Positions 15,586 to 26,553 of a stretch of 64,000 nucleotides of DNA are shown in pieces. The stretch is from Pseudomonas azotoformans (GTDB lineage Bacteria; Pseudomonadota; Gammaproteobacteria; Pseudomonadales; Pseudomonadaceae). The DNA is taken from the NCBI RefSeq assembly GCF_900103345.1, contig NZ_LT629702.1, positions 868,001-932,000 of the forward strand, written 5' to 3'. Each line of letters begins with the position of its first letter. Positions within the stretch are counted from its first letter, which is position 1. The notes beneath the pieces were generated by a model. The model saw only the letters and a list, made by a program, of their open reading frames with translations. It searched no databases and was not told the DNA's origin. A program made the position numbers and the translations under genes.

Positions 15586-17712
15586 TTAGAACCGGGTCTG
15601 TACCGCCAACTCAAAGGTTCGTGGTGAGCCCAAGTAATACGCCGGCGACACATGGGCAAACTCGGCATACACCTCATTCGTCAAGTTGCGCACACGGCCC
15701 GTCACCGAGGTGTGTGAATCCACCTTATAGCGCAGGAACGTCCCGAACAGCGTGTAGGCCGGCACTGTCTGGGTGTTGGCGTTGTCCGCATACACCTCGG
15801 CTACATATCGCGCGTCCACGCCCCCTTGCCAGTCCTCGGCAAAATCATAGGTCAGCCACAGATTCCCCACGCGCTTGGGCACGTTGGTTGGCGTGTTGCC
15901 CTTGCGCGACACCACGGCGCCACTGGCGATTTTCTCGTTGAAGTCATCGTATTCGGCATCCACCCAGGCGAAATTGCCTTCCGCCAGCAACTTTGGCGTG
16001 ATGCGCAGCGAGCTGGCCAATTCGATCCCCTTGGATGACTGTGCACCGACCGGAATGCTATTGGTGGGATCCTGCGGGTCGGTGACGGCAAAGTCCTTGC
16101 GCTCGATCTTGTACGCGGCAACGGTGGCCGAACCACGGCCGTCCAGGTAGTCGAACTTGCTGCCCACTTCCCACTGCTTGCCCGTCGAGACATCAAACAC
16201 CTGCGTGGTGGTGTTCGGTTGCTCGGCGGCGGTGCTGTATTGCACATACACATTGGCCGTTGGGATGAACTGGTAGGTCAGGCCCACGCGTCCGGTCACC
16301 GGCTCCCAGCTGCGTTTGAAGTGGCGGGGGTTGGTGGCGGTTATTGCGCGATGATTGGTGACGTCCAGGTCGATGGCGTCATAACGCAGGCCGGTCAACA
16401 GCGACAATTTGTCGGTAAGACCCAGGCGATTCTCCACGAACAATGCCTTGGTGGTGACTGCGTTGGTCTTGTCCTTGCCGAAGCTTTCCCGGGTCCGCGG
16501 GAGGTCAAAGAAGTGTCCGGGGTCGAAGTTGTTCGGGTCTACCGTGCCGTTGCCGGGTACGTTCCACGGTGTATTGGTGGTGCTGTTGACCTTGTACTCG
16601 AAGCCGCCGGACCAGGTGGTTGACAGGCCGAAGAGGCTATCGTCGTGGCGCAGCTCGAACTGGTTGCCGTTCTGTTCGCCTTGATGGCGAACCTGGTAGG
16701 CCGTCGAACGGTTTACCGCCGTGTTGTTCGCGTTGTACTGATAGGTTTCAAGGTTGCGGTAATCGCGTTGGCTGTCCAAGTGGTAAAGGGTGTTTTTCAG
16801 GGTGGTGCTGTCGTTGAGGCGGTAGTCGATGATCGAGCGCGCCCAGAGGGTGCGCTGTTCGTAGCGCCCGTCGGCGACGTTGTAGTTGTTGAAGCGGTTG
16901 TGTTTGTCGATCTTCAACTCGCCGGCCTTGGGGTTGAGCACCGGCGTGCCCCAGTAGGGGCTGTCTTCATGCTCATCCTGGTATTCCAGCGCCAGGGTGT
17001 GGGACAGGTTGGGCGTGAGGTCGCTGAGCAGCGAAAACGCCAGGCTCCAGGCGTCGCGCTGGTCTCGGTCGATGTAGCTGTGGTTGGTGTTGCGGCTCAC
17101 ATCCAGGCGGGCGTAATGCTGCACCTCGGCGCCAGGTTCGGTCAGGGCATGGTTGACGCCGAAGGCCATGCCGGCGGTGTCGTAGCTGCCGTAGGTGAGC
17201 TGGCCTTCGGCGGCTTGTTCCTCGCGGGTGGCCAGCTTGGTCACGTAGTTGAGTGAGCCGCCCACGGAGCCTGCGCCGTTGATCAGCGAGGAGGGGCCAC
17301 CCACCAGCTCCACCCGGTCATAGATCCACGCATCCACGGGGCGGGCCAGACCAGTGGCGACATTGATGCCGTTGAACATCTGGGTGATCTGGCTGCTGGT
17401 AAAACCGCGATAGGAAACAAACCCGCCAAACCCCGGCGGGGCGCTGGCGTTGACGCCGGGCAAGGTGTTGGCCGCATCGCGGAAGGTCTTGGCGCCATGG
17501 CGCTCGATGTCATTGCGATTGGCGATGGCTACCGACGCCGGGGTTTCCCGCACACTCAAGCCCAACCGTGACGCCACGCCGCTGGATTGATCCAGGGCCA
17601 GGCCGGGTTCGGCGGTTTGCTCGCCATCGATGGTGGTCGGGGCCAGCTCAAGGGCCCAGCCGCAGACAGGCAGGCAGCCGAACAGGCCTGCCAACAGGGG
17701 TAGATGTTTCAT
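15586..17712 (-). CDS. TonB-dependent outer-membrane receptor (siderophore/metal type, no STN domain)
   Basis: 708 aa. A short signal peptide (MKHLPLLAGLFGCLPVCGWA) is followed by the plug (ETPASVAIANRNDIERHG, RDAANTLPGV, VSYRGF, YDRVELVGGPSSLINGAGSVGGSLNYVTK) and a 22-strand barrel ending in LAVQTRF. The frame is open 11 codons upstream, but AGGA before the ATG at 17712 sets the start. The gene 95 bp upstream on the same strand encodes a DUF2946 protein, a family often found next to copper-linked receptors such as OprC, so a metal rather than a classical siderophore substrate is plausible. The substrate is inferred. Confidence 0.85.
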   Translation of the reverse strand: MKHLPLLAGLFGCLPVCGWALELAPTTIDGEQTAEPGLALDQSSGVASRLGLSVRETPASVAIANRNDIERHGAKTFRDAANTLPGVNASAPPGFGGFVSYRGFTSSQITQMFNGINVATGLARPVDAWIYDRVELVGGPSSLINGAGSVGGSLNYVTKLATREEQAAEGQLTYGSYDTAGMAFGVNHALTEPGAEVQHYARLDVSRNTNHSYIDRDQRDAWSLAFSLLSDLTPNLSHTLALEYQDEHEDSPYWGTPVLNPKAGELKIDKHNRFNNYNVADGRYEQRTLWARSIIDYRLNDSTTLKNTLYHLDSQRDYRNLETYQYNANNTAVNRSTAYQVRHQGEQNGNQFELRHDDSLFGLSTTWSGGFEYKVNSTTNTPWNVPGNGTVDPNNFDPGHFFDLPRTRESFGKDKTNAVTTKALFVENRLGLTDKLSLLTGLRYDAIDLDVTNHRAITATNPRHFKRSWEPVTGRVGLTYQFIPTANVYVQYSTAAEQPNTTTQVFDVSTGKQWEVGSKFDYLDGRGSATVAAYKIERKDFAVTDPQDPTNSIPVGAQSSKGIELASSLRITPKLLAEGNFAWVDAEYDDFNEKIASGAVVSRKGNTPTNVPKRVGNLWLTYDFAEDWQGGVDARYVAEVYADNANTQTVPAYTLFGTFLRYKVDSHTSVTGRVRNLTNEVYAEFAHVSPAYYLGSPRTFELAVQTRF

Positions 17713-17807
17713 GGTTGAATCCTGAAAAACTTGGCTTGAAAACAACGCACAGGCGCCCGTACTTCCTTGCGGAAACGGTACTCAGTGCAGATCGGAAAGC
17801 GAAGGCA

Positions 17808-18765: not shown

Positions 18766-19176
18766 TCAAGGCTGTATGAAGTACAAGTTGGACATGGATC
18801 CAGAGATTTTCTGAGCTTTGCCCTTTTTCAGGTACTCGCTGAAATCACGCTCAAGCGAGTCTTTATTGGTATATTTCTTGTATCTGCATGGAACCTCGCA
18901 CGCGTACATATATAGTCTCCACGGGTCGAATCCATCGACTCTTTCATTCGGGCCGTAATCAAAGTCGACACAGAGTTCAGATAGATAAACGCTGCATCCA
19001 ATGCCATGCAACTCGTAGGTTACGCCGTCGGTGACAAATCCTCGTCGCGGAATTTTTTTGGAGTGCCACAGCCTGAGAATGTTCTTGGTTCCAAAAGTTT
19101 GTTCAAGCAAGTCAGTCGCTATTTTTACTTGCGTCAAATACTCGGCTATCAAATTTTCCAGGGTCTGATTTTTCAT
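18766..19176 (-). CDS. putative immunity protein of the RHS toxin (possible DUF6896)
   Basis: 136 aa, starting MKNQTLENLIAEYLTQ. Its ATG overlaps the toxin stop codon by 4 bp (ATGA at 19173-19176), so it is translationally coupled. It is small, cytoplasmic (no signal peptide), slightly acidic in the middle (VDFDYGPNERVDGFDPWR) and visibly AT-richer than surrounding genes. The motif YELHGIGCSVYL suggests DUF6896, a family I associate with immunity-type genes, but this is tentative. Position alone makes immunity to the preceding toxin tip the best inference. Confidence 0.7.
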   Translation of the reverse strand: MKNQTLENLIAEYLTQVKIATDLLEQTFGTKNILRLWHSKKIPRRGFVTDGVTYELHGIGCSVYLSELCVDFDYGPNERVDGFDPWRLYMYACEVPCRYKKYTNKDSLERDFSEYLKKGKAQKISGSMSNLYFIQP

Positions 19177-22100
19177 CGTCTTGGCCTATCCAATCTATCG
19201 AGCCCAACCGCATTTGATGCTTCTATCACTTCTTCAATGCTGTTGAACGTGGTTTTGTGGCTATATATATCGGTGATTAACTTTAAGGTGACTGGCGTAT
19301 GTGTTTGTCTTGCTGCCGAGGCACGATGATGCCCGTCAACAATATAGCGCCGTTCGTTGTGTTCGAGTATTTCAATGGGTTCGTTGATTTTGTACCCATC
19401 GCTTCGCATGCTGAGAGCAATTCTCTCAACCCGTTTGGTTGAGCGTTTGCCCTCGATGGTGTGTGTTCGAATCAAGGTTTCCGCATTAACTCCGTGGATG
19501 AGGGGAGGCGATTGAACTCCATCGTCCACATGTGCTTTTTGGGTTGGATCGTCCGCGCCTGGGATTGTCTGTAGTTTGCAGCTGTCCTCCCCGGGACAGG
19601 CACTCAGTCCTAAAGGGTCCACCCATCCCGTCGGATTGGGCACGTACTGGTAAGCATTGATCCCACCCGCCAGCTTCACCGGATCAGGCGTCAGGTAACG
19701 ACCAACATCCGGATTGTAGTAGCGATGGCGGTTGTAGTGCAGCTCGCTTTCCCGATCGAAATACTGACCCTGGAAACGCAGCGGATTGTCGACTTTTCCG
19801 ATGTCGAGGCGGGTGATTTCCCCGTAGGCACGGTAATGCGCCGACCAGACGATTTCGCCATCCGGGGCGGTGAGTTCTTGCGGGGTGCCCAAGTGGTCGA
19901 GCTGGTAGTGGTAGGCCTTGGTTTCCTTGGGGCCGAAGCCTTCCAGCAAGGCTAGCGGATGGAAGCTGTCGGGCTCATAGAGATAGCTGCGATGCCGATC
20001 CGCGTGGTGTTCGGCGATGAGTTTGTCGCCTTGCCAGAAGAACTCGGTGGTGATGCCGTCGACGGTTTTACTGATACGCCGCCCAAACGGGTCGTAGCGG
20101 TAGCTGGCGGTCTGGCCGTTGGGTTTTTTAATACCGATCAGGCGGTGCTGGCAGTCGTAGCGGTATTCGGTGACGAGTTGATGGCCTTTGCCGCGTCGTT
20201 CGCGAATCAGGTTGCCGAAGGCGTCGTAGTCGTAATGATGGTCGCCCTGGATCATCAGGCGGTTGCCGGCGACGATGTCGGGGCCGGGGCGGTTGTGCAT
20301 CAGTAGGTTGCCGGCGGGGTCGTGGCCGAAGCGTTCTTGCTCGCCTTGGGTGTGATCGGCGCGGGTGAGGCGGCTGAGTGGGTCGTAGTGGTAGCGGTGT
20401 TCGCCTTTGCGGGTGTCGAGCAGGCGGGTGAGGTTGCCGGATTTGTCGTAGTCGTAGTGGCGTCGGTAGACCGGGCCTTCGGCATCAACGATGCTCTGGT
20501 TGAACAGGCGTCCCTGGTGGTCGTGTTGGTAGTGGCTTAGCAGTTGGCCTTGTTGGCGTTGCTGTTCGCGGCCGGCCTTGAACAGGTGTGAGGTGAGTAC
20601 CGAGCCATTCAGTTCGACGGTGGCGAGGTGACCGCCTTTGTCGTGATTGAAGGTGAGGCGGTTGTTGTCTGGCAGGCGCAGGTTTTGCAGCTGGCCGCAG
20701 GCGTCGTAGCCGTAGCGCAGGGTGCCCCAGCCTTGGTGTTCGGCGGTGAGGCGGTTTTGGCTGTCGTACTCGTAGGCCAGGGACCAGTGGCCGTCTTCGA
20801 CGCCTAAGAGATTGCCTTGGCGGTCGTAGGTGTAATCGACGGTATTGCCATCGGGTAGGGTTTTTCTGACGAGGCGTCCGGCGTAATCGCGCTCGTAGCG
20901 GGTAACCAACTGACTGCCGTCATCGCCGTGTTCGGTCTTTTCCCGAAGGTTGCCGTTGAGGTCGTACACGTACGCCGTGCGCTGACCGTCAAAGCCGGTT
21001 TCCTGCTGGATCAGGCCGTTGTTGTGGTACTGGAGTCGGTAGGTCTCGCCAACTTCGTTTTCGATTTCAGTCAGCAGTAACCGCGCGTTGTCGTAGCGGT
21101 AGTTGACCTGTGTACCATCGGCATTGATGCGGCGGCTGATCAGGTGCAGGCCGTCGGCGTATTCGTAGCGGGTGACGTGCCCGAGTTCATCGCGTTCGGC
21201 GGTGATTTTTCCGTAGGGGTTGTAGCTGTATTCCCTGAACTCGCCGCCTGGCAGCACAACGCGAGTCAACCGACCCACGCTGTCCCACTGATACTGGGTC
21301 AGCCCGCCGTGTTCATCTTCCCGCGCAATCTGCCGCCCGAGATCGTCATAGCGATAACGCTTGATCCCACCATTGTGCAACTGCTCCTCAAGCAACTGCC
21401 CACGCTCGTTCCACACCAGCCGCTGACAGCTGTGATCCGGGTACCAAACTCCAATCAGCTGCCCATATTTGTTGTAGGTGTAATCGGTAACGTGACCGTC
21501 AGGATCGATCTTGCGAATGACATCGCCCTGGTCATTGCGCTCATACTTCCAAACCGCCTGACCCCGCCTTACAACCCGTACGAACCCATTGTCATGTTCG
21601 TAGGTCTTCGGCTCATCGTCCCCCGGAAACACCGCCACCAAGCGCCCGGCTTCGTCGTACTGATACGCCGTGATCGCTCCTAGCGGATCCTGCTCAACCG
21701 TCAGCCGGCCTTTTTCATCGTAGGATTTGAAATGCTCGGCCCCGTCAGGATCGACCCGCTGCACCAGTCGCGCCCGCTGGTCATGCACGTAGACTTCCTG
21801 GCTACCATCGGCGTTAAACACCGTGACCTGGCCGTTGTCATCCCAGGCATAACGCGTGTCCATCTGCGAGAAGCTGGCCCAATGCCGCACACACCGCGCC
21901 GCCTTGCCAGACCGTTCCCACTCCCAGAAGAAACTCGCCCCACCGGCCAAACCGCGCTCAAGAATGACGTGCTGCTCGTCGTACCGATAAACCTCGCTTT
22001 CACCGACCGCATTGGTCGCTGAAACCAGTCGTCCCAGGTCGTCATAGGTGTAGGAAACAACGGTCTGCTCCGTCACCCAAACAAACGGACCCTCATCCAG

Positions 22101-23798
22101 AACGCGATGAATCTGGTAATCCACCGCCACAATCCGACCCGACGCATACCGCAAGAACAGCGAGCGCCCGACGCCGTTATCCACCCGCTCAACACGCCCC
22201 AGAAAATCCCGGGAAATGCGCAGGCGGTTGTCATACGCGTCGCTGATCGCTGTCAGCACACCGTCGCGGAAGTGGTAGAAACGTGACGCTTGGGCCAGCA
22301 CCAGTTCATCAGGCACAGCACCCAAATAGATTGCGGCTTCGGCCAGACTGTTGGTGATCGCAGGTCGAGAGGCAGTCGGCAAGGGCAGGGTGGTCGACCG
22401 ATTCTCATGATCGGTCCACACCACCGCATCACCCACAACCACCAGCCGATGCGCCAGCGCGTGACTCCAACCAAACCCCAGCCCGACATCCACTTCCACC
22501 GCACTGGTGCGATACAACCGGGTCCACTCAAACGGCAAGATCCCGTCCAGCGTCCCATCGGTGAGGGTCAGCAATTCCTCGCCGGTAACCATCGACACCG
22601 GGCAACCGTTAGTGGCGGTCTTGTCCGCAGGCGCCGCCGCATCCCCATTCGGGTTTCGAGCAGAAGCCGGCACATCATCCACATGTTCTTTCTGCTTCAG
22701 CACCGCGTTCTGCCGCGCCTTCCAGCGTATCTGCATCGTGCCTTGCTTGAGCCCGCCGACTACCCCGCGAACCGCCACCGCCTTGTAGCGATCCACCGCC
22801 TGCATGAACTTGGTCAGAATCGCCAACAGGCCCTTAACAAAACCCACCGCCGCCTCAAGAATCGCCGCTCCATACTTGACCAACCGCAAGCTCAGATACG
22901 CCACACCCGCCGCCGGCAAGGCGATGGTCAACACGGCGCCAATCACCAGGTCAATCAGCAGCGACACCACAAACCCTGCTGCTACCTCGGCCATCTCACC
23001 GGGGGGTAATGCGTCCAGCCAGAGCATTGCCGTACGTACCATCAGGTACAGCGCCGCCTCGTCACTGGCGAGCAACATCGCCTGTTCCATGACCTTCGGC
23101 GTGTCGGTGGCGATTTGCGCCAACCTGGCGGCCTGCTCACCCAACTGCTCAACGAACGCCAACGGGTCTTCAAGAATTGCCTGCACCAGCTTGATGCTGT
23201 CCCACACGTCGCGAATCGCCGCCCAACTGCCCGCCAATAAACCGCTGCCAATTGCACTGGCGGTCGAGCGCTCCCAATGCGGTTTAAAGCCAGACCACTG
23301 CTCCCGAAGCCACTGCTGCAGATCCCCCATCAACCCGTCGTAGGAGGCAAACAACGCGTCGACTTGCTCGCTGGAAACACCGCCCTGCACCCGCACCTGA
23401 TAGCGCCCACCCGCCGCGCAGTGATGTGAGCCCTTACCCTGTTCATCCAGCATGATTACTCTGGAACTGCCGTCATCCAGGCCGATGACCTCAACCGGGA
23501 TATTGCCGATTGGTACGTCATATACCGACTCGAACTTGCTCTCGATCTTCAGTTCACCGCCCATCGGGCAGCGGGTCACGGTCGAAAAGTCAGTGTCGGA
23601 AAGGCTCACCGAACGCTGCGAATCGCCAACCCGCAATACCCGGTCAATCCCCAGCAACGACGGCATGTCAGCCGCATGACTCAGCGAATCCAGCGCACGC
23701 GAATACCAGGCGTTCATCTGCTGGCGATAACTCACCAGGCTCTGATGAAAGCCGTCCAGTTCCATTTCGATCAGGGCAATGTGGGAAGCGTTGGTCAT
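19173..23798 (-). CDS. RHS-repeat polymorphic toxin with C-terminal ParB-like nuclease domain
   Basis: 1541 aa from the ATG at 23798. Layout: an N-terminal domain of about 270 residues; hydrophobic segments (VVSLLIDLVIGAVLTIALPAAGV and following); a DUF6531-like junction (GCPVSMVTGEELLTLTDG..LPFEWTRLYRT); about 800 residues of YD/RHS repeats (many YRYD..GR motifs); the RHS-associated core (RFQGQYFDRESELHYNRHRYYNPDVGRYLTPDP); and the autocleavage motif P-x4-DPLGL. The 143-residue tip (19176-19604) carries INEPIEILEHNERRYIVDGHHRASAA, a ParB/sulfiredoxin-fold signature seen in nuclease toxins. No PAAR motif, VgrG or EagR gene is near, so the delivery system (T6SS is usual) is not shown. The tip is AT-richer than the body. 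Confidence 0.9.
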   Translation of the reverse strand: MTNASHIALIEMELDGFHQSLVSYRQQMNAWYSRALDSLSHAADMPSLLGIDRVLRVGDSQRSVSLSDTDFSTVTRCPMGGELKIESKFESVYDVPIGNIPVEVIGLDDGSSRVIMLDEQGKGSHHCAAGGRYQVRVQGGVSSEQVDALFASYDGLMGDLQQWLREQWSGFKPHWERSTASAIGSGLLAGSWAAIRDVWDSIKLVQAILEDPLAFVEQLGEQAARLAQIATDTPKVMEQAMLLASDEAALYLMVRTAMLWLDALPPGEMAEVAAGFVVSLLIDLVIGAVLTIALPAAGVAYLSLRLVKYGAAILEAAVGFVKGLLAILTKFMQAVDRYKAVAVRGVVGGLKQGTMQIRWKARQNAVLKQKEHVDDVPASARNPNGDAAAPADKTATNGCPVSMVTGEELLTLTDGTLDGILPFEWTRLYRTSAVEVDVGLGFGWSHALAHRLVVVGDAVVWTDHENRSTTLPLPTASRPAITNSLAEAAIYLGAVPDELVLAQASRFYHFRDGVLTAISDAYDNRLRISRDFLGRVERVDNGVGRSLFLRYASGRIVAVDYQIHRVLDEGPFVWVTEQTVVSYTYDDLGRLVSATNAVGESEVYRYDEQHVILERGLAGGASFFWEWERSGKAARCVRHWASFSQMDTRYAWDDNGQVTVFNADGSQEVYVHDQRARLVQRVDPDGAEHFKSYDEKGRLTVEQDPLGAITAYQYDEAGRLVAVFPGDDEPKTYEHDNGFVRVVRRGQAVWKYERNDQGDVIRKIDPDGHVTDYTYNKYGQLIGVWYPDHSCQRLVWNERGQLLEEQLHNGGIKRYRYDDLGRQIAREDEHGGLTQYQWDSVGRLTRVVLPGGEFREYSYNPYGKITAERDELGHVTRYEYADGLHLISRRINADGTQVNYRYDNARLLLTEIENEVGETYRLQYHNNGLIQQETGFDGQRTAYVYDLNGNLREKTEHGDDGSQLVTRYERDYAGRLVRKTLPDGNTVDYTYDRQGNLLGVEDGHWSLAYEYDSQNRLTAEHQGWGTLRYGYDACGQLQNLRLPDNNRLTFNHDKGGHLATVELNGSVLTSHLFKAGREQQRQQGQLLSHYQHDHQGRLFNQSIVDAEGPVYRRHYDYDKSGNLTRLLDTRKGEHRYHYDPLSRLTRADHTQGEQERFGHDPAGNLLMHNRPGPDIVAGNRLMIQGDHHYDYDAFGNLIRERRGKGHQLVTEYRYDCQHRLIGIKKPNGQTASYRYDPFGRRISKTVDGITTEFFWQGDKLIAEHHADRHRSYLYEPDSFHPLALLEGFGPKETKAYHYQLDHLGTPQELTAPDGEIVWSAHYRAYGEITRLDIGKVDNPLRFQGQYFDRESELHYNRHRYYNPDVGRYLTPDPVKLAGGINAYQYVPNPTGWVDPLGLSACPGEDSCKLQTIPGADDPTQKAHVDDGVQSPPLIHGVNAETLIRTHTIEGKRSTKRVERIALSMRSDGYKINEPIEILEHNERRYIVDGHHRASAARQTHTPVTLKLITDIYSHKTTFNSIEEVIEASNAVGLDRLDRPRR

Positions 23799-24051: not shown

Positions 24052-26553
24052 ATGTCGCGCCTTGCTCCTCCCTTGCACCCACTGGCCCTGTCAGTGGCGA
24101 TGGCTTTTGCCGCCGTACCGTTGCTGACCGTCCAGTCCTCCTATGCCGAAGAGAGCAGCAGCGCGTTGCGCCGTTTCTCGATCCCTGCCGGTGACCTGAG
24201 CCAGGCGCTCAACAACCTCGCCGAACAGGCGGGCCTGGTGCTGGCCTTCGATGCAGGCCTGACCCGGGGCAAACGCAGCAAGGGGTTGAGCGGGCAATAC
24301 GACACTGACGTGGCACTGAGCCAATTGCTCGCCGGCAGCGGCCTGCAAGCCTTGAAGATTTCCGCCGACCGCTACCGCCTCGAAGCCATCCCGGATAACG
24401 GTGGGGCCATGGAACTGCAGGCCACCACCATCAGTGGCGCGTATCAGGCCGAAAGCCCGACCGGGCCGGTGGCCGGTTATGTGGCCACGCGCAGTTTGTC
24501 GGGGACCAAGACTGACACCGCGCTGATCGAAACCCCGCAGTCGATTTCCATCGTCACCAAAGACCAGATGCGTGCGCAAAACGCCGAGAGCCTCAACCAG
24601 ATCCTGCGTTACAGCGCCGCCGTCATCCCGGAAACCCGTGGCGCCACTGCGTCGCGCCTTGACCAACTGACTATCCGCGGTTTCTCCCCGGCCACTTACC
24701 TCGATGGCCTGCGCATGCCGTCGAGCCGTGACGCGCTGCCGCAGAAAGACGCCTTTGACCTGGAACGCGTGGAAGTGCTGCGCGGCCCGGCGTCGGTGCT
24801 GTACGGCCAGGGCACGCCGAGCGGGGTGATCAACATGGTCAGCAAGCGCCCGTTGGATACGCCGTTTCATGAAGTCGGCGTGGAATACGGCACCTTCAAC
24901 AAGAAGCGCACCACCTTCGACTTGAGCGGCCCGCTGGATGATCAGGGCGTGTATTCCTACCGCGTGGCCGGGCTTTTCGACGATGCCGATGGGCAAGTGG
25001 AACACACCGAGACGCGCCGTCAGTCATTGTCCAGCGCCTTTACCTGGCGCCCGGACGACACCACTTCGCTGACCCTGCTCGGGCATTTCCAGAAGGACCC
25101 CAAGGGTGCGTCCTATGGCTCGGTGCCGGCCTGGGGCTCGGTACTGCACAGCCCGACCGGGCGCAGCATCGATGTGGATTTCTACGATGGCGAGAAGAAC
25201 TTCGAGAAAAGCGACCGCGAGTACTACTCCATCGGCTGGGCGTTCGAGCATCACTTCGATGACGTCTGGACCGTGCGCCAGAATGCACGTTACCTGCGCA
25301 GTGAAGGCCAGTACCGCAGCCTCTACAGCAACTACCTGATGGCGGATTACCGCACCATCCGCCGCTCGACCATCGCCAGCGATGTCGACCTGGATGCCTA
25401 CACCCTCGACAATCAACTGCAGGCCAAATTCGACACCGGCCCGTTGCAGCACACTTTGTTGATGGGCCTCGACTACCAGAACACCAGCACCGACACCAAG
25501 TCCGGCTCCGGCGTGTACACCGCCGGCCCGACCCTGGATATTTTCAACCCGGTCTATGGCGCGGCTGTCCCGGTGCCGGCCTACACCACCGACGGCACTT
25601 CGCGCAGCGAACAGACCGGGGTGTACCTGCAAGAGCAGATGAAGTGGGATAAGTGGGTGCTGCTGCTGGGCGGTCGCTATGACTGGGCCAGCACCGATAA
25701 CAGTACCCAGACCATCAGCACGGGGGCCAAGAGCAAGTCGTCCCTGGACAGCAAGGCGTTTACCGGTCGTATCGGCCTGGTCTACCTCTTCGACAATGGC
25801 CTTGCGCCGTATGCGAGTTATGCGGAGTCGTTCAACCCGCAATCGGGCACCGGCTACGGCGGTTCGGTGTTCAAGCCGACCGAAGGCAAGCAGTACGAAA
25901 TCGGCATCAAGTACCAGCCGCCGGGCAGCAACAGCTTTATCACCGCGGCTATCTTCGACCTGCGTCAGACCAACGTGCTCACCACCGACCCGGACCCCAC
26001 CCACCTGTGCGGCACCGGGCGCTGCCAGAGCCAGGACGGTGAAGTGCAATCCCGTGGCTTCGAGCTGGAAGGCAAGGCCAGCCTCAACGATAACCTCGAC
26101 ATCACAGCGGCCTACGCATACCTGGACAACCGCATCAGCAAATCCAACAACACTGTGCGCTATGCGCCCATCAGCGATATCGGCGTAGGCCCGGCCATCG
26201 CCGCCGAAGGCACCACCACCTACGGCGTGCCGCGCCACACCGCCTCGGCGTGGGCTGACTACACCTTCCACGACGGCCACCTCAAGGGCTTCGGCGCGGG
26301 TGCGGGCACGCGTTATGTCGGGTCTTCCTGGGGCGATACCGCCAACACCCTCAAGGTGCCGGGCTACACCTTGTTCGATGCGGCGGTGCACTACGACATC
26401 CCCAATATCACCAGCCTCAAGGACAACCTGCGCCTGGCGCTCAATGCCACCAACCTGGCGAATAAAGAGTATGTCGCGTCCTGCTACTCCTATTCGTGGT
26501 GCTGGTATGGCTCGCAGCGCACTGTGCAGGCGAGTGCAACCTACCAGTGGTGA
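24052..26553 (+). CDS. TonB-dependent ferrisiderophore receptor with STN signalling domain (FhuA/FiuA-like)
   Basis: 833 aa. Signal peptide about 1-33; STN domain about 40-110 (RRFSIPAGDLSQALNNLAEQAGLVLAFD); plug with ETPQSISIVTKDQM, TIRGFSPATYLDG and VEVLRGPASVLYGQGTPSGVINMVSK; barrel ending in CYSYSWCWYGSQRTVQASATYQW. The paired Cys near the C-terminus recall hydroxamate receptors of the FhuA/FiuA group. An STN domain normally talks to a FecR-type anti-sigma, but no such gene is adjacent. CAGGA precedes the ATG. No convincing Fur box was found in the 253-bp upstream gap. Ligand is inferred. Confidence 0.88.
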   Translation: MSRLAPPLHPLALSVAMAFAAVPLLTVQSSYAEESSSALRRFSIPAGDLSQALNNLAEQAGLVLAFDAGLTRGKRSKGLSGQYDTDVALSQLLAGSGLQALKISADRYRLEAIPDNGGAMELQATTISGAYQAESPTGPVAGYVATRSLSGTKTDTALIETPQSISIVTKDQMRAQNAESLNQILRYSAAVIPETRGATASRLDQLTIRGFSPATYLDGLRMPSSRDALPQKDAFDLERVEVLRGPASVLYGQGTPSGVINMVSKRPLDTPFHEVGVEYGTFNKKRTTFDLSGPLDDQGVYSYRVAGLFDDADGQVEHTETRRQSLSSAFTWRPDDTTSLTLLGHFQKDPKGASYGSVPAWGSVLHSPTGRSIDVDFYDGEKNFEKSDREYYSIGWAFEHHFDDVWTVRQNARYLRSEGQYRSLYSNYLMADYRTIRRSTIASDVDLDAYTLDNQLQAKFDTGPLQHTLLMGLDYQNTSTDTKSGSGVYTAGPTLDIFNPVYGAAVPVPAYTTDGTSRSEQTGVYLQEQMKWDKWVLLLGGRYDWASTDNSTQTISTGAKSKSSLDSKAFTGRIGLVYLFDNGLAPYASYAESFNPQSGTGYGGSVFKPTEGKQYEIGIKYQPPGSNSFITAAIFDLRQTNVLTTDPDPTHLCGTGRCQSQDGEVQSRGFELEGKASLNDNLDITAAYAYLDNRISKSNNTVRYAPISDIGVGPAIAAEGTTTYGVPRHTASAWADYTFHDGHLKGFGAGAGTRYVGSSWGDTANTLKVPGYTLFDAAVHYDIPNITSLKDNLRLALNATNLANKEYVASCYSYSWCWYGSQRTVQASATYQW

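Follow-up and report, generated by a model that had tools for sequence, protein, structure and literature searches.

A Tox-ParB tip on an RHS protein of Pseudomonas azotoformans and its probable DUF6896 immunity partner

Two overlapping genes in a 64,000-nucleotide stretch of the Pseudomonas azotoformans genome (contig NZ_LT629702.1, positions 868,001 to 932,000; the whole stretch is called the window below) probably encode an antibacterial RHS polymorphic toxin and its immunity protein. We put the probability of this reading at about 0.8, a figure that excludes the chemistry by which the toxin acts. The RHS protein carries a 143-residue C-terminal tip with a predicted ParB-like fold, and the gene behind it encodes a member of the Pfam family DUF6896. 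We propose that the RHS part would fold as a cage around the tip and free it by cutting after the motif DPLGL. The cage would reach neighbouring cells, most likely via type VI secretion, with the genes for it lying in another part of the genome. There the freed Tox-ParB tip would poison the recipient. In the producer and its kin, the DUF6896 protein, whose translation would begin at the overlapping ATG, would bind and block the tip.

The original prediction, which was made from the letters of the window, described a 1541-aa RHS protein that ends, after DPLGL, in a 143-residue tip with a DGHHRASAA signature, followed by a gene that starts inside the stop codon of the toxin. The open reading frame (ORF) and its sequence agree with this description. 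The letters PTGWVDPLGL stand directly ahead of the tip, the tip includes VDGHHRASAA, and the ATG of the partner and the TGA of the toxin overlap as ATGA. Tip and partner are also AT-richer than the RHS body, as had been pointed out: their GC contents are 49.3% and 44.3%, compared with 59.8% in the body (55.9–63.2% in tip-sized segments of it) and 61.2% in the window.

Pfam recognizes RHS_repeat (1.7e-72), the DUF6531 plug (6.5e-20) and RHS (8.5e-15) in the RHS protein, and Pfam and NCBIfam together delimit 18 RHS-repeat stretches and an RHS-associated core. Two solved type VI Rhs cages align along the same part of the protein, 7q97 to residues 398–1399 (3.9e-124) and 8h8a to residues 394–1397 (5e-117), and these homologues suggest that our protein forms a cage as well. 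The C-terminal end of the presumed cage reads PDPVKLAGGINAYQYVPNPTGWVDPLGL and contains an Asp pair, 1372 and 1394, with a spacing of 22. In Tse5 the catalytic Asp pair is D1141/D1164, with a spacing of 23, and the cut falls after L1168 (PMC10684867). By analogy, the pair in our RHS protein is the counterpart of the one in Tse5, and the protein is probably cut after DPLGL. The combination of RHS cage, DUF6531 plug and paired Asp before the tip is that of the type VI Rhs effectors RhsA and Tse5, as these are described in PMC8765631 and PMC10684867.

For the tip, the AlphaFold2 (AF2) model has blocks at pLDDT 93–96 over residues 41–110, and the model and PDB searches together give a ParB/sulfiredoxin/SerK fold. 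The best VIA match is 1vk1, a Pyrococcus furiosus structure that we take to be PF0380. The original prediction had staked itself on a ParB-like fold of the tip, and this is the fold that we find. Two known members of the fold were considered as models for the tip and rejected. Sulfiredoxin has a catalytic Cys in its GCHR motif where our tip has His, which argues against a sulfiredoxin-like reductase. ParB and Noc CTPase clamps have GERR where our tip has GHHR, and they have helix-turn-helix (HTH) and dimerisation parts, neither of which is present in the tip, a single domain of 143 aa; a ParB CTPase clamp is therefore not what the tip resembles beyond its fold. A role in anti-phage defence was also discarded, since neither tip nor partner matches a PADLOC model at E≤0.1.

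The tip class itself is not new, because DGHHR is the signature of the Tox-ParB toxin domains, which were described as ParB-fold domains on RHS carriers (Zhang et al. 2012, PMC3482391). Our tip has the same fold and motif, the same C-terminal position behind RHS and, presumably, an immunity gene downstream. It differs from the listed cases in its partner: the immunities given there for Tox-ParB (additional file aside) are Imm20, Imm27 and Imm-SuFu, not DUF6896, although that list records what had been observed in 2012 and is not a definition. Hence, of the suggestion that the combination of tip and immunity protein might be novel, one half holds. The tip class was already known by prediction, and only the DUF6896 pairing looks new. 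In open-licence papers, supplementary files aside, we found neither DUF6896 as a Tox-ParB antidote nor a kinase-like Tox-ParB. Searches of these papers gave no hit for DUF6896, and for Tox-ParB and DGHHR the 2012 paper only. Among the papers that a search on ParB toxins brought up, it is also the only one that, judged by title, concerns toxins, and the main text of a 2025 survey of the ParB-CTPase fold contains neither “toxin” nor “RHS” (PMC12704722).

The partner belongs to DUF6896, as had been suggested for it: PF21837 matches at 8.6e-31 with 107.1 bits, against a curated cut-off of 27, and it is the sole Pfam match at E≤1. No relative in the PDB was found by sequence at E≤1, nor by fold (best E 0.96) with an AF2 model of pLDDT 94.4. 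A protein search gave 104 relatives, and those with names are nearly all from Pseudomonas. One feature is not borne out: the charge, which had been called typical of an immunity protein, turns out slightly basic (pI 8.3; K+R 19, D+E 17), which led us to reject an acidic DNA-mimic type of immunity.

One argument for a toxin and its antidote is that the two genes travel together. In 298 genomes of the same genus, where we judged adjacency by eye from the coordinates, searching with the tip gave 34 places, spread over 32 genomes, and searching with the partner gave 59 rows from 46 genomes. A DUF6896 match adjoins 32 of the 34 tips; 27 of these 32 could be aligned along most of the tip and five are remnants. 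The two tips without one (G029, G194) are distant tips. Beyond this sample, we kept 79 related loci from a contig scan, among them a P. extremorientalis contig (L069) in which the tip is 100% identical. DGHHR was one of the two scan patterns, so that its conservation there is partly built in, and some of the loci searched had gone into the models of tip and partner. In 46 of these 79 loci a DUF6896 match starts no more than 300 nt behind the tip match, and in one more (L104) it lies slightly further away. Outside Pseudomonas, these 47 linked loci include ones from Pseudoalteromonas, Parabeggiatoa, a metagenome-assembled genome (MAG) of Pseudomonadota, Leucothrix, Alkanindiges, Bacteriovoracaceae, Streptomyces (2), Clostridiales, Planctomycetota and Aquimarina. 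All six distant partners that were checked pass the Pfam cut-off for DUF6896. Two of the linked tips (L104, L109) stand behind PT-HINT domains and not behind RHS. That the 136-aa family should recur beside the same tip elsewhere was part of the original prediction, and it does. Plasmids do not appear to spread the pair, as only two of 72,556 plasmid records have a match, both about 30% identical.

Tip and partner have also diverged together. Their distances correlate with r 0.94 (34 pairs), those of tip and RHS body with r 0.74 (29 loci), and in both cases none of 2000 permutations was as high; these are Mantel correlations, and shared ancestry remains in them. Without any motif filter, GHHR is present in all 25 same-genus tips that were aligned (25 of the 34 places) and the D of DGHHR in 24. 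The closer DUF6896-linked tips differ from Tox-ParB as published in that they end in a VGxD[RK]L...R signature, whose G134 is found in 40 of 41 of them but in only one of 37 other DGHHR loci. Since five of these 37, many of which are gapped in the alignment, are distant yet linked to DUF6896 (L106, L107, L124, L127, L130), the signature marks a subset and not every linked tip. For the remaining 32 of the 79 loci, the sequence covered shows no match to DUF6896. Among 14 of them read by eye, six share one type of downstream gene (MA[IL]WQY..., start approximate; L111, L115, L119, L120, L122, L136) and four share another (M.TRQPIAEGLISCRNILLG..., start approximate; L112, L116, L118, L121). Clades of DGHHR tips hence appear to differ in their partner. 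The two recurrent types are candidates for immunity families without a name, and the four downstream genes that were scanned match no Pfam family.

The exchange of tips between RHS bodies, which the AT-rich composition had hinted at, can be observed within this one genome. It is complete (6.73 Mb, one contig) and contains at least six RHS ORFs; 150 of 179 candidate RHS places were scored. Three paralogs (L154, L155, L156) are 91–100% identical to the RHS protein of the window over residues 401–1400, compared with 9–22% in the tip and 21–43% in residues 1–400. All three close paralogs thus carry a variable tip on a conserved body. The ORF directly after the L156 tip is Imm50, and its counterpart in L155 matches no Pfam family. 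The tips of L154 and L155 are alike, as are the ORFs directly after them, and a CdiI_2 gene further downstream of L154 is perhaps a retained orphan immunity gene. N-termini related to that of our RHS protein occur at 24 other places. At 13 of these the frames are long (N-termini 43–55% identical), and reading their 3' ends revealed other tips in all 13. One of these 13 tips, that of L172, reads by eye like a second ParB-related class, perhaps Tox-ParBL1.

Immunity genes that guard against neighbours are expected to be kept after the toxin is lost, and this is the pattern that DUF6896 follows. Seventeen partner rows have no adjoining tip and fall outside a solitary subfamily that is described below. 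Of the 11 that were read by eye, eight have DUF6896 behind another tip (with an RHS core visible in five), two have it behind other small ORFs, and one (G100) has it beside an RHS N-terminal remnant. In G285, flanks 85–88% identical to those in the window enclose a full-length DUF6896 gene (84%), and most of the RHS gene is gone. In G295, a different tip, with a possible partner, sits on the RHS body; downstream of it come 54 aa left over from our tip class, and DUF6896. The DUF6896 frame is open beside three of the five tip remnants (G018, G285, G295).

How the toxin would leave the cell probably depends on genes elsewhere. The pair had been called an orphan, which is true of its neighbourhood and not of the genome. 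The window has no match to VgrG, PAAR or EagR; in the genome elsewhere, the VgrG domain occurs at three places, PAAR at two and DcrB/EagR at one. An island at 4.59 Mb contains a ClpB/ClpV-type ATPase, VgrG, EagR and two PAAR-RHS genes, and it is this island, together with the cage homologues, that makes type VI delivery plausible. At the end of the island (L157, 15420–16004) there is a C-terminal RHS fragment with the start of an HNH-like tip, incomplete at the edge of the sequence covered there. Unlike PAAR-type type VI Rhs effectors, our RHS protein has no PAAR that we could find and no adjoining VgrG or Eag gene.

Several further observations count against our reading of the locus, in addition to this bare neighbourhood. 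The tip itself stays under all Pfam and NCBIfam cut-offs, with no NCBIfam match at E≤0.01, and residues 1–390 of the RHS protein match no Pfam family at E≤0.001. Two of the five tip remnants (G030, G182) have a broken DUF6896 frame beside them, and in G100, where similar flanks (83–88%) surround a decayed RHS gene, the alignment of the partner begins only at residue 18. In addition, a solitary DUF6896 subfamily of the same genus (L183–L191, 30–35% identical to the partner) has no tip nearby in any of the nine genes examined, so that DUF6896 is not purely an immunity family. One could argue from the missing VgrG, PAAR and EagR genes, and from the displaced tip remnants and partners in relatives, that the toxin is parked: no secretion system would deliver it, and the cell would retain it either for an intracellular toxin-antitoxin role or as a reservoir for tip recombination. 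We consider this improbable, since the 1541-aa frame is unbroken and retains the cleavage motif and the cage, and since the full-length protein recurs with a tip 91–100% identical in five of the 17 database RHS proteins listed. One could also argue from the solitary subfamily, and from a model without known fold, that DUF6896 is a co-transferred gene other than an antidote, for example a chaperone or a regulator. This seems very unlikely to us given its position, the overlap, the co-divergence with the tip, its retention after toxin loss and the Imm50 gene in the same position in a paralog.

What the tip would do to its target is much less certain than that it belongs to a toxin. The kinase SerK has exactly the same VDGHHR, and hence the motif alone is no pointer to a nuclease. 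A profile built from 22 diverse DGHHR proteins can be aligned with SerK, which has IVDGHHR too. In this alignment the His48 column of the tip falls opposite SerK residue 30, at a low posterior, which weakens the comparison. Residue 30 is Glu in the wild type (5x0j is E30Q), and we take Glu30 to be the catalytic base of SerK; the titles of PDB entries for E30A and E30Q structures are in keeping with this. A profile of tips only, compared with two Thermococcus SerK homologues (whole alignment: probability 76%, E 2.3e-5), places R46-T47-H48 opposite P-H-E at a relaxed alignment threshold only. In the two Streptomyces tips and several relatives the His48 position is itself Glu, and in others Gln or Asp. 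The SerK family NF053625 (cut-off 380 bits) does not match the tip at E≤0.01 and matches eight of 48 relatives weakly. At about 240 aa, and with a role in metabolism, SerK is also unlike a 143-aa toxin tip. It is an ADP-dependent free-serine kinase of Thermococcus (PMC5120207; PDB 5x0b–5x0k). By this comparison the tip may act by nucleotide-dependent phosphoryl transfer, with His48 as a possible general base, a proposal that we hold tentatively and at somewhat less than even odds. Apart from the SerK genes, Thermococcus genomes encode 140-aa proteins with YILDGHHR (L129, 1859–2278; L134, 9797–10216). Desulfobulbaceae and related MAGs have frames of 370–371 aa with a DGHHR ParB-like part (L138, L143, L144, L147), and L138, which additionally has an Lrp/AsnC ligand-binding domain, is not toxin-like.

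The same toxin and immunity system could instead work with a metal-dependent nuclease that cuts the DNA or RNA of the target cell. This was the prediction of 2012, in which DGHHR forms part of a metal-binding active site and a nuclease is argued from the dominance of nucleases among polymorphic toxins (PMC3482391). The abundance of nucleases among toxin domains does favour it over phosphoryl transfer. The folded part of the tip (residues 32–143) is basic, with a pI of 9.5, and Pfam describes ParBc_2 as a “putative ParB-like nuclease”. For PF0380, a close Pyrococcus homologue of SerK, nuclease activity was reported at a time when SerK was not yet known as a kinase (PMC5120207). That report speaks against a SerK-like chemistry, yet it cuts both ways. 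The 2012 paper itself calls the assumptions behind the founding ParB nuclease study erroneous (PMC3482391), the motif is shared with a kinase, and the DUF6896 partner is not acidic. We regard the label “nuclease”, which the original prediction implied as well, as an inherited one, and a nuclease as less likely than not. The SerK alignment and the mixed history of the nuclease claim lead us to rate phosphoryl transfer slightly above it, with low confidence in either. A third option is that the tip binds a nucleoside triphosphate and is neither a phosphotransferase nor a nuclease, in which case it would sequester or hydrolyse nucleotides or act as a nucleotide-dependent binder. ParB-fold proteins bind CTP, ATP or GTP, and a SerK-like protein bound CTP (PMC12704722), but with GHHR where ParB has GERR, and without the HTH and dimerisation parts, the tip is a poor candidate and we give this option little credence.

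The features of the locus are collected in Table 1. On either side, the pair is flanked by genes for TonB-dependent receptors (24052–26553 and 15586–17745 in the window; Pfam barrel and plug).

Table 1. Features of the RHS toxin gene and its partner. Positions are those of the 64,000-nt window; both genes lie on the minus strand.
Feature	Position	Strand	Basis or remark
RHS gene	19173-23798	-	1541-aa ORF, ATG at 23798, stop codon 19173-19175
RHS N-terminal region, residues 1-397	22608..23798	-	presumed delivery/docking part
RHS cage, residues 398-1398 (plug, YD repeats, RHS-associated core)	19605..22607	-	Pfam/NCBIfam, solved Rhs cages
DUF6531 plug, residues 398-470	22389-22607	-	Pfam
Putative DPLGL self-cleavage motif, residues 1394-1398	19605..19619	-	sequence reading; Tse5 analogy
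Asp1372, presumed partner Asp of DPLGL	19683-19685	-	sequence reading; Tse5 analogy
C-terminal tip, 143 aa; folded part about residues 32-143	19176..19604	-	AF2 model, PDB matches
VDGHHR motif, tip residues 89-94	19323..19340	-	alignment of same-genus tips; SerK identity
R46-T47-H48 of tip	19461..19469	-	H48 opposite SerK Glu30, weak alignment
DUF6896 partner gene, 136 aa, presumed immunity	18766..19176	-	PF21837; adjacency in relatives

In its widest form, our proposal would be that Tox-ParB tips paired with DUF6896 are toxic phosphotransferases related to SerK, acting on small molecules (or proteins), and form a kinase-type class of ParB-fold interbacterial toxins with DUF6896 as an antidote family across several phyla. 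We consider this doubtful, but worth stating. More narrowly, DUF6896, a Pfam family of unknown function, would gain a candidate role, that of antidote to a single clade among the ParB-fold toxins. The function of ParB-fold toxin domains would in turn be narrowed to a choice between nuclease and phosphotransferase, with H48 and D90–R94 as the named residues.

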